From contig RPFO01000934.1 in assembly GCA_009746045.1 (NCBI GenBank), positions 124,001-188,000 of the forward strand: a DNA stretch of 64,000 nt, given 5' to 3'. A program made the translations under genes and the position numbers. This stretch comes from Mesostigma viride (lineage: Eukaryota > Streptophyta > Mesostigmatophyceae > Mesostigmatales > Mesostigmataceae). The notes beneath the pieces are model-generated. The model saw only the letters and a program-made list of their open reading frames with translations. It did no database searches and was not told where the DNA came from. The stretch's first letter is position 1. Every line of letters starts with the position of its first letter. Of the stretch, positions 13,301 through 63,888 are shown piece after piece.

Positions 13301-16300
13301 GAAGAGGCTGTACAAGGGGCAAAGAAGGGTGTATGATACAGGCGAAGGGGCTGCATCATGGAAGAGGCTGTGCAAGGGGGAAAGAAGGGTGTATGATACA
13401 GGCGAAGGGGCTGCATAATGGAAGAGGCTGTGCAAGGGGGAAAGAAGGGTGTATGATACAGGCGAAGGGGCTGCATAATGAAAGAGGCTGTGCGATGTGG
13501 AAAGAAGGGTGTATGATACAGGCGAAGGGGCTGCATAATGGAAGAGGCTGTGCAAGGGGGAAAGAAGGGTGTATGATACAGGCGAAGGGGCTGCATAATG
13601 GAAGAGGCTGTGCAAGGGGGAAAGAAGGGTGTATGATACAGGCGAAGGGGCTGCATAATGGAAGAGGCTGTGCAAGGGGGAAAGAAGGGTGTATGATACA
13701 GGCGAAGGGGCTGCATAATGAAAGAGGCTGTGCGATGTGGAAAGAAGGGTGTATGATACAGGCGAAGGGGCTGCATAATGGAAGAGGCTGTGCAAGGGGG
13801 AAAGAAGGGTGTATGATACAGGCGAAGGGGCTGCATAATGGAAGAGGCTGTGCAAGGGGGAAAGAAGGGTGTATGATACAGGCGAAGGGGCTGCATAATG
13901 GAAGAGGCTGTGCAAGGGGGAAAGAAGGGTGTATGATACAGGCGAAGGGGCTGCATGATGGAAGAGGCTGTGCAAGGGGGAAAGAAGGGTGTATGATACA
14001 GGCGAAGGGGCTGCATCATGGAAGAGGCTGTACAAGGGGGAAAGAAGGGTGTATGATACAGGCGAAGGGGCTGCATAATGGAAGAGGCTGTGCAAGGGGG
14101 AAAGAAGGGTGTATGATACAGGCGAAGGGGCTGCATCATGGAAGAGGCTGTGCAAGGGGGAAAGAAGGGTGTATGATACAGGCGAAGGGGCTGCATAATG
14201 GAAGAGGCTGTGCAAGGGGGAAAGAAGGGTGTATGATACAGGCGAATGGGGCTGCATAATGGAAGAGGCTGTGCAAGGGGGAAAGAAGGGTACGAGGGTA
14301 TCTCAAGCGGGAGTTGCGACTGGGGAACGAGCTCAAAAACTTTGAAGCAAGCGTGTCGGCCAGTGCCTGGGGATGGGGTGGGGATCGGATAGGAATGGGG
14401 TAGGGATCGAATAGGAATGGGGTGGGGATCGGATAGGAATGGGGTGGGGATCGGATAGGAATGGGGTGGGGATCGGATAGGAATGGGGTGGGGATCAGAT
14501 AGGAATGGGGTGGGGATCGGATAGGAATGGGGTGGGGATCGGATAGGAATGGGGTGGGGATCAGATAGGAATGGGGTGGGGATCGGATAGGAATGGGGTA
14601 GGGATCGGATAGGAATGGGGTAGGGATCGGATAGGAATGGGGTGGGGATCGGATAGGAATGGGGTGGGGATCGGATAGGAATGGGGTAGGGATCGGATAG
14701 GAATGGGACTTGAAGCAGCGACAAGGACGCAGCCACCATAAAACAATCTGAGCATGGGTCAGCGCAAAGGCATGGGAGAGGTGGCAGGCGGATGAGGTGA
14801 GAACAACAAAAAGGGGCGGAACGAATCAGGTACAGAACATGAGGGTTGACAGCAGGGCAAAACCGGACGAGACGCTCCATATACCACGCTGCTGACATAC
14901 TGTGAGTGTAAAGATCGGTGGATGGGTAGTTGGCTGCATGACGTACGTTTGTTTGTTTGTTTGTTTGTTTGTTTGTTCGTTCGTTTGTTTGTTTGTTTGT
15001 TTGTTTGTTTGTTTGTTTGTTTGTTTGTTTGTTTGTTTGCTTGCTTGCTTGCTTGCTTGCTTGCTTGCTTGCTTGCTTGCTTGCTTGTTTGTTTGTTTGT
15101 TTGTTTGTTTGTTTGTTTGTTTGGTGGGTTGTTTGGTGGGTTGTTTGTTTGTTTGTTTGGTGGGTTGTTTGGTGGGTTGGTTGGTGGGTTGGTTGGTGGG
15201 TTGGTTGGTGGGTTGGTTGGTGGGTTGGTTGGTGGGTTGGTTGGTGGGTTGGTTGGTGGGTTGGTTGGTGGGTTGGTTGGTGGGTTGGTTGGTGGGTTGG
15301 TTGGTGGGTTGGTTGGTGGGTTGGTTGGTGGGTTGGTTGGTGGGTTGGTTGGTGGGTTGGTTGGTGGGTTGGTTGGTGGGTTGGTTGGTGGGTTGGTTGG
15401 TGGGTTGGTTGGTGGGTTGGTTGGTGGGTTGGTTGGTGGGTTGGTTGGTGGGTTGGTTGGTGGGTTGGTTGGTGGGTTGGTGGGTGGGTTGGTTGGTTGG
15501 TGGGTGGGTGGGTGGGTGGGTGGGTGGGTGGGTGGGTGGGTGGGTGGGTGGGTGGGTGGGTGGGTGGGTGGGTGGGTGGGTGGGTGGGTGGGTGGGTGGG
15601 TGGGTGGGTGGGTGGGTGGGTGGGTTGGTTGGCTGGTTGGTTGGTTGGTTGGTTGGTTGGTCGCTCGCTCGGTCGGTCGGCTGGCTGGCTGGCTGGCTGG
15701 CTGGCTGGCTGGCTGGCTGGCTGGCTGGCTGGCTGGCTGGCTGGCTGGCTGGCTGGCTGGCTGGCTGGCTGGCTGGCTGGCTGGCTGGCTGGCTGGCTGG
15801 CTGGCTGGCTGGTTGGTTGGTTGGTTGGCTGGTTGGTTGTGGTTGATGGCAGATTGGTCGGTTGCCAAAGTTGGAGACTGACGCACGCACTTGTTGGTGT
15901 ACCGTCACACACAGACCTACTGAGAAGAAGGCAGCCAAACAGAACGCACTGGCGCGAAATGACACCCAGACGTGCAGATTCACGGGCACGAAAGAACATC
16001 ACTAGGGCATGATCCACTAGTGGCGCAAAGAAGGTCGCGCCATCATGGACACGTGGCTGTCACACCTGCGCGGCAATCACGCCGGGATAGTCGGACACGC
16101 AGCGCAGTGAGACCAGCTCCCACAGCAGCAGGCCGAGCGCCCACAGGTCGCTCTTCTCGGAGAAAGGCGCGCCCATCAGCACCTGCAAGGACATATTTAT
16201 AGAACAAGACAAGTTGGAGGAATCAGAGTACGAGCACCCGCGAAAAGAGGGCGCCCATCAGCACCTGGGGAGCAGGGTAAGGCGAGACGAATAGGATGCA

Positions 16301-63888: not shown

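Follow-up and report, generated by a model that had tools for sequence, protein, structure and literature searches.

Tandem copies of exon edges at splice junctions of Mesostigma viride, with repeat arrays leaning towards the donor side

Introners are mobile introns that occur in nearly identical form at many positions of a genome, and intron gain by tandem genomic duplication has reportedly taken place in potato. A different relation between repeats and splice sites is known from amphioxus, where a minisatellite named mirage spans exon-intron boundaries at donors or acceptors; according to the accessible parts of the two reports, its units measure 10-72, 60, 108 and 150-160 bp, many copies still have splice signals, splicing is normal by RT-PCR and array length changes between haplotypes (PMC3087553, PMC3902484). 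Another known event, AGGT intron gain, starts from the tandem duplication of an exonic AGGT segment in the genome; as far as the available part of its description goes, the duplicated segment itself forms the intron (PMC3443670). No report of boundary-spanning repeats in algae was found in the open-licence literature, which is weak evidence of their absence.

The repeats of M. viride described here appear mirage-like in the features compared. As in the accessible accounts of mirage, tandem repeats lie across exon-intron boundaries (at 7/7 edges named in an earlier note on the window, the 64,000-nucleotide stretch analysed here, and in 11 donor and 3 acceptor families among 72 introns of dynein heavy-chain genes), both boundaries are affected, unit lengths are similar, and copies carry splice signals, with GT in 22/25 copies at 17/72 dynein donors. 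Differences from the same accounts are that the host is a green alga and not a chordate, that many genes were counted instead of single cases, and that the donor side is favoured; mirage comes with RT-PCR and haplotype data, whereas the alga is known here from the sequence of one assembly. With AGGT intron gain, as partly described, the repeats have in common a tandem duplication within genes that gives extra AG/GT sites; unlike there, the copies lie inside existing introns. We class the repeats with mirage because the mirage features tested fit, and because the likeness that defines AGGT intron gain was present in 0/58 introns at a score of at least 20. Head-to-tail units, divergent copies and an occurrence also outside genes in this genome are shared with ordinary intronic or intergenic minisatellites, from which the repeats differ in that a notable share crosses or adjoins donors. 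As to introners, four homologous dynein introns have little in common beyond their exon-edge copies.

The earlier note had claimed that exon edges in three genes of the window are tandemly duplicated into neighbouring introns with periods of about 35 to 100 bp. On re-reading the bases, its positions proved right: donors 22897, 18217, 19294 and 29036, acceptors 16182 and 62359, and a stop codon at 61366-61368. One gene encodes a protein kinase (PF00069, 7.5e-28), for which a homology search gave weak matches only among the best 120 of 417, another a kelch protein (PF24681, 6.4e-31); downstream of donor 29036 in the third gene, the reading frame 29992-30972, which may belong to yet another gene, had no Pfam match. 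A 60-bp window at each edge was compared with its flanks of 500 bp and scored against 1000 first-order shuffles, some of the boundaries outside the note's list being placed 1-5 bases off. The copies are present: all seven listed edges (7/7) scored above 1000/1000 shuffles, as did 4/14 further edges of the same three genes. In total, 11/21 edges lay above all 1000 shuffles (donors 7/9, acceptors 3/11, stop edge 1/1), compared with 0/16 mid-exon control windows, the best of which was matched by 16/300 shuffles. Several cases exceeded the shuffle maximum only just, namely the listed donors 19294 (37 vs 33) and 29036 (31 vs 29) and the additional donors near 21147 (31 vs 30) and 19914 (32 vs 30), all with copies across the edge, as well as the additional donor 63739 (34 vs 33), whose array adjoins the edge; the additional acceptor near 61541 scored 34 against a maximum of 29. 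Clearest are the array at the donor of the kinase glycine-loop exon, where a 37-bp unit recurs about 20 times and a looser array extends down to 21964, and the 31/31 copy at 18217 (Table 1). The distances from edge to copy span 37 to 445 bp, a wider range than the periods claimed. The window cannot serve as an independent test, because it was singled out by the reader who saw the pattern in it.

Table 1. Repeats at exon edges of three genes in the window (window positions; additional, edge outside the earlier note's list).
Feature	Positions	Strand	Evidence
About 20 units of 37 bp, holding the end of the kinase glycine-loop exon (about 22897-22953) and the donor GTGAGC	22135..22912	-	Tandem repeat finder period 37, 20.6 copies; edge score 71, 0/1000 shuffles
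31-bp stretch twice, 75 bp apart: kinase exon end TESYTSPE and donor (exon end 18217)	18138..18243	-	31/31 identical, E 5e-10; 0/1000 shuffles
Kinase donor 19294, weak copies 18840-18873 and 19202-19223	18840..19316	-	Scores 37, 24; 0/1000 shuffles, maximum 33; weak
Kinase donor about 21146 (additional), weak copies 20909-20947 and 21008-21056	20909..21183	-	Scores 33, 32; 0/1000 shuffles, maximum 30; weak
Kinase acceptor (first exon base 16182), three upstream intronic copies of intron end and exon start	16155..16511	-	16244-16267, 16334-16380, 16457-16511, scores 36, 44, 46; 0/1000 shuffles
Donor 29036 of third gene, copies 29131-29158, 29190-29207 and 29239-29253 within a 49-bp array (29143-29253)	29021..29253	+	Scores 31, 31, 25; 0/1000 shuffles, maximum 29; weak
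Array with about 2.4 units of 70 bp over the end of the kelch frame (stop codon 61366-61368), continuing into the 3' flank	61252..61428	-	61257-61355 vs 61327-61428, E 1.7e-17; 0/1000 shuffles
Kelch acceptor about 61541 (additional), one intronic copy 132 bp off	61522..61712	-	E 1.5e-5; 0/1000 shuffles
Kelch acceptor (first exon base 62359), intronic copies 98 and 229 bp off	62327..62575	-	E 3.4e-7, 0.002; 0/1000 shuffles
4 units of 49 bp starting about 11 bp inside the intron after kelch donor 63739 (additional); beside the edge, not across	63528..63739	-	Array 63528-63728, 94% matches

The dynein heavy-chain genes of the same genome (440 Mb in 2243 contigs) provided a blind sample: they were chosen by a family search without knowledge of their introns, and their exons were placed by translated alignment with refinement of splice sites, so that the edges rest on homology. 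Among the best 120 of 970 matches were green-algal relatives (Tetraselmis, Haematococcus, Nannochloris, Coccomyxa). The sample is a single gene family; sampling covers about 295 kb in all as the sum of the loci (L017, L019 and loci inside longer regions were not employed on their own), and the number of unique introns rose from 58 to 62 and then 72 as annotation grew. Ab initio prediction added 22 introns, which hold 5 repeat families; it recovered 66/72 known donors with 2 false exons in 38.7 kb, as measured on its own training set, and the 4 introns that it placed in 113 kb of the window's contig were excluded from the tests. At the P-loop exon of the dyneins, the best acceptor varied between annotation runs (1505 or 1377 in L022, 1508 or 911 in L025), and in both of these introns the exon start has a near copy.

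In the first dynein set, a near copy was defined for 40-mers as a score of at least 30 within 500 bp, and 3/58 donor and 3/58 acceptor edges were dropped as low-complexity. Near copies were found at 15/55 donor edges (shuffles 0) and 6/55 acceptor edges (shuffles 1.8%), compared with 0/433 mid-exon 40-mers (shuffles 0). About a quarter of the sampled donor junctions thus have tandem copies, and as these junctions were chosen blind, the pattern reaches beyond the window. The comparison of edge with mid-exon 40-mers that the earlier note had proposed hence turned out as it had predicted in this sample, with an excess at edges and far from the 'no excess' that was to count against it. Chance as the source of the copies is ruled out by the shuffles, both in the window and in the dyneins. 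Mid-exon sequence, on the other hand, is the wrong control, because a duplication there alters the protein, and it was rejected as sufficient: the interior of introns is repetitive as well, with near copies for 195/1216 interior 40-mers (shuffles 0.3%). Since, in addition, copy frequency shows a plateau without a peak at the edge (see below), comparing edges with mid-exons cannot tell mechanisms apart.

Repeats are also abundant in the window at large. After removal of 1595/12792 40-mers as low-complexity, 16.6% of the 11197 scored had a near repeat at score 32 (shuffles 0.25%), distributed patchily: the median 2-kb block had 8.7%, and 8/32 blocks had less than 0.5%. Repeat families occupied 17/40 of the 500-bp tiles in dynein introns, 18/36 in the three gene spans and 49/189 elsewhere on the contig; duplication therefore extends beyond introns, though it is commoner in them, a difference that a uniform process would not predict. 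Other repeats of the window include a purine-rich satellite of about 5 kb (43361-48393) with nested periods of 245, 373 and 495, and arrays of palindrome-like GTATACGGCC / GTAAACTTTAC units at 42565-42760 and 50794-51213. One reading frame (YQIRKACITPRTG...) is present three times, at 34294-34716 (-), 54337-54720 (+) and 54730-55215 (+), two copies forming a direct repeat and the third lying inverted 20 kb off; the single copy searched had no Pfam match.

The earlier note had further taken the repeats to imply a process acting at exon-intron boundaries. Four tests bear on this point in the dyneins, and they are not in full agreement. In a position profile of 30-mers at score 26, the near-copy rate rose from 0 deep in the exon (100-120 bases in) through 0.12 at position -20 to 0.25 at the donor and then lay at 0.15-0.26 up to +200; the corresponding values on the acceptor side were 0.03-0.14, with 0 at position -20, then 0.09 at the edge itself and 0.02-0.04 within the exon. 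The profile is thus a step at the donor followed by a plateau, with no peak at the edge. Comparison with the same intron's 5' half gave near copies at 15/59 donor edges vs 10.4 expected at score 30 (P 0.025), which faded to P 0.16 at score 34 and to no excess at score 38 (8/59 vs 8.0, P 0.60); the test is conservative in that an intronic copy of a donor edge scores as interior. Acceptors showed no excess over their own introns (6/57 vs 4.3). When whole arrays were counted, the 72 dynein introns contained 37 families, 11 of them straddling a donor and 3 an acceptor. When as many as 100 exon bases were admitted, the figures were 10/35 vs 3.2 expected for donors (P 0.0003) and 3/35 vs 2.7 for acceptors, which contradicts the reading of 'no donor excess' drawn from the first dynein comparison. 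A second version, which let a family reach over the edge by its own period and took in the 22 ab initio introns, gave 11/42 vs 3.0 for donors (P 0.00014) and 3/42 vs 2.65 for acceptors; as four homologous introns may be non-independent, a shared intron position was also counted once, which left 8/38 vs 2.7 (P 0.003). The numbers of families are small.

Arrays detected in intron sequence alone receive no help from conserved exon bases. Such arrays touched the donor (to within 3 bp) in 6/28 cases vs 3.3 expected (P 0.11; 4/25 vs 3.1 when collapsed), which is not significant, and started within 20 bp of it in 12/28 vs 4.2 (P 0.0003; collapsed 10/25 vs 3.9, P 0.0025), a limit that was set after the array positions had been seen. 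On the acceptor side there was no excess (2/28 vs 4.2). The two intron ends differ accordingly: near copies were commoner over the first 200 intron bases (18.2%) than over the last 200 (7.2%; P 0.006, 69 introns), and they occurred at 15/59 donor vs 6/57 acceptor edges (P 0.053), or 22/68 vs 9/68 when the reader-selected window is pooled in (P 0.013). The inference of a boundary process is hence not supported in the form given: relative to its own intron interior, the donor excess is modest and threshold-dependent, acceptors have none, and straddling of donors by intron-only arrays falls short of significance. Part of the donor excess comes from conserved exon bases, which keep old copies detectable. 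What remains is a bias of arrays towards donors, with no counterpart at acceptors.

Our preferred reading, to which we assign a probability of about 0.6, is that the copies mostly reflect ordinary local tandem duplication, removed in exons and tolerated across donors. Head-to-tail duplication of short segments, 79-141 bp long in the clear-cut dynein examples, is local, patchy and common, within introns as well as beyond genes; the copies may be made by slippage, template switching or unequal exchange. Duplications inside exons, which would alter the protein, are missing from mid-exon positions, presumably through selection. Where a duplication crosses a 5' splice site, the first exon end would keep its donor unharmed, and the additional unit would be treated as intron, provided that the spliceosome goes on using the exon-proximal donor; the protein would then be unchanged. 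At a 3' splice site, duplication would place a further AG, together with an exon start, ahead of the true acceptor, and the asymmetry between the two sides suggests that such copies are less tolerated because the earlier AG would be met first and be likelier to be used. The apparent focus on exon ends would then have three sources: the comparison with mid-exon sequence, the slower decay and longer detectability of copies with a conserved exonic half, and a genuine, unexplained bias of arrays towards the G-rich stretch of the intron next to the donor. In favour of tolerance we count the contrast between exons and introns (mid-exon 0/433, intron interior 195/1216, donor edges 15/55, acceptor edges 6/55), the step-and-plateau profile without an edge peak, the same-intron comparison (donors 15/59 vs 10.4, acceptors 6/57 vs 4.3, and no donor excess at score 38), the non-significant straddling by intron-only arrays, the repeats outside genes and the GT still present in 22/25 dynein donor copies. 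Against tolerance alone stand the whole-array donor excess (11/42 vs 3.0, P 0.00014), which it does not predict, the 12/28 arrays starting within 20 bp of the donor vs 4.2, the four paralogs with copies at one homologous donor, and the higher level of near repeats in introns than outside genes.

The same observations speak for a more active role of donors, in which 5' splice sites or the first intron bases would raise the local rate of tandem duplication and seed arrays, for example through R-loops on a G-rich sense strand behind the polymerase; this is the earlier note's idea narrowed to donors. To the array excess (11/42 vs 3.0; 12/28 vs 4.2) and the contrast between intron ends (18.2% vs 7.2%, P 0.006) it can add base composition. 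The sense strand has G 0.34 and C 0.21 in the first 50 intron bases of the dyneins and C 0.43 in the last 50, and the near-copy rate climbs between the lowest and the highest quartile of sense G-skew, from 0.12 to 0.32 in the 5' half of introns and from 0.08 to 0.21 in the 3' half, mainly by a rise of the top quartile over the other three (0.12-0.16 and 0.06-0.08, respectively), with windows that overlap and are non-independent. Moreover, four dynein paralogs carry donor copies at one homologous donor, these being all the sampled introns seen at that position; their exons are 69-79% identical, and their introns match each other only at and around the exon-edge copies. Intron G-skew and paralog copies may be clues to the cause of the donor lean. 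However, the profile has no peak at the edge itself, intron-only straddling is not significant (6/28 vs 3.3; collapsed 4/25 vs 3.1), the 22 ab initio introns on their own have 0/5 families at donors (0.13 expected), and the counts are small, with overlapping windows and a cutoff chosen post hoc. We hold seeding by donors to be unlikely, if still the strongest of the competing accounts, and are equally doubtful of its fullest form, namely that donors or G-rich intron starts actively seed duplication in this lineage, with every conserved donor a standing source of further copies within its own intron, homologous donors of old paralogs repeatedly affected and acceptors spared.

The remaining accounts seem much less probable than seeding. 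The 11 donor families of the dyneins repeat the exon end, the donor and the intron start at a spacing of 79-141 bp, and GT at the aligned donor is kept in most copies (22/25 over dynein rows, to which the count was restricted because minus-strand window donors are misaligned by at least one base; 24/38 with window rows included), so that extra donors are not obviously purged. Selection might go further and retain duplicated donors, either as decoys or because they assist weak splice sites; other aligned dinucleotides are retained at an average of 0.76 (38 copies), but the GT figure is biased because copies had to align across the donor, and acceptor copies and interior arrays would require a separate cause, which makes this explanation improbable. 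Slightly less probable still is that the copies are traces left by the birth of introns, in which an exonic AGGT segment was duplicated in tandem. The first two exon bases are GT at 29/58 dynein introns, compared with 33/625 AG-following positions inside exons, and the spliced joints are therefore often AG|GT; exons end with AG in 33/58, and splice consensus, too, would lead one to expect such joints. Yet likeness of intron start to downstream exon start and of intron end to upstream exon end reached a score of at least 20 in 0/58 introns each, and the copies hold the intron start rather than the downstream exon; for the 58 introns tested, such an origin is ruled out at either end. The AG|GT joints of the dynein introns (L014-L055) may as such be splice consensus or a trace of intron gain. 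An artefact of assembly, exon placement or low-complexity sequence is the least probable of all: although exon edges derive from homology and splice consensus and several window cases barely exceed the shuffle maximum, shuffles reach the same score in only 0-1.8%, copies differ from each other and are joined to individual intron sequence, the dynein donor cases are spread over seven contigs, and low-complexity queries had been dropped.

For the study of such repeats, it matters that a comparison of exon edges with mid-exons confounds mutation with selection. Boundary-spanning repeats are described here from an alga, counted over many introns and with a donor-side bias. The donor-side lean makes it testable whether transcription or splice-site sequence shapes the sites of tandem duplication. 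Should the sample prove representative, a large fraction of this alga's introns would carry spare copies of their own donor, and nature would have set up an experiment on spliceosomal choice between 5' splice sites that are nearly identical.
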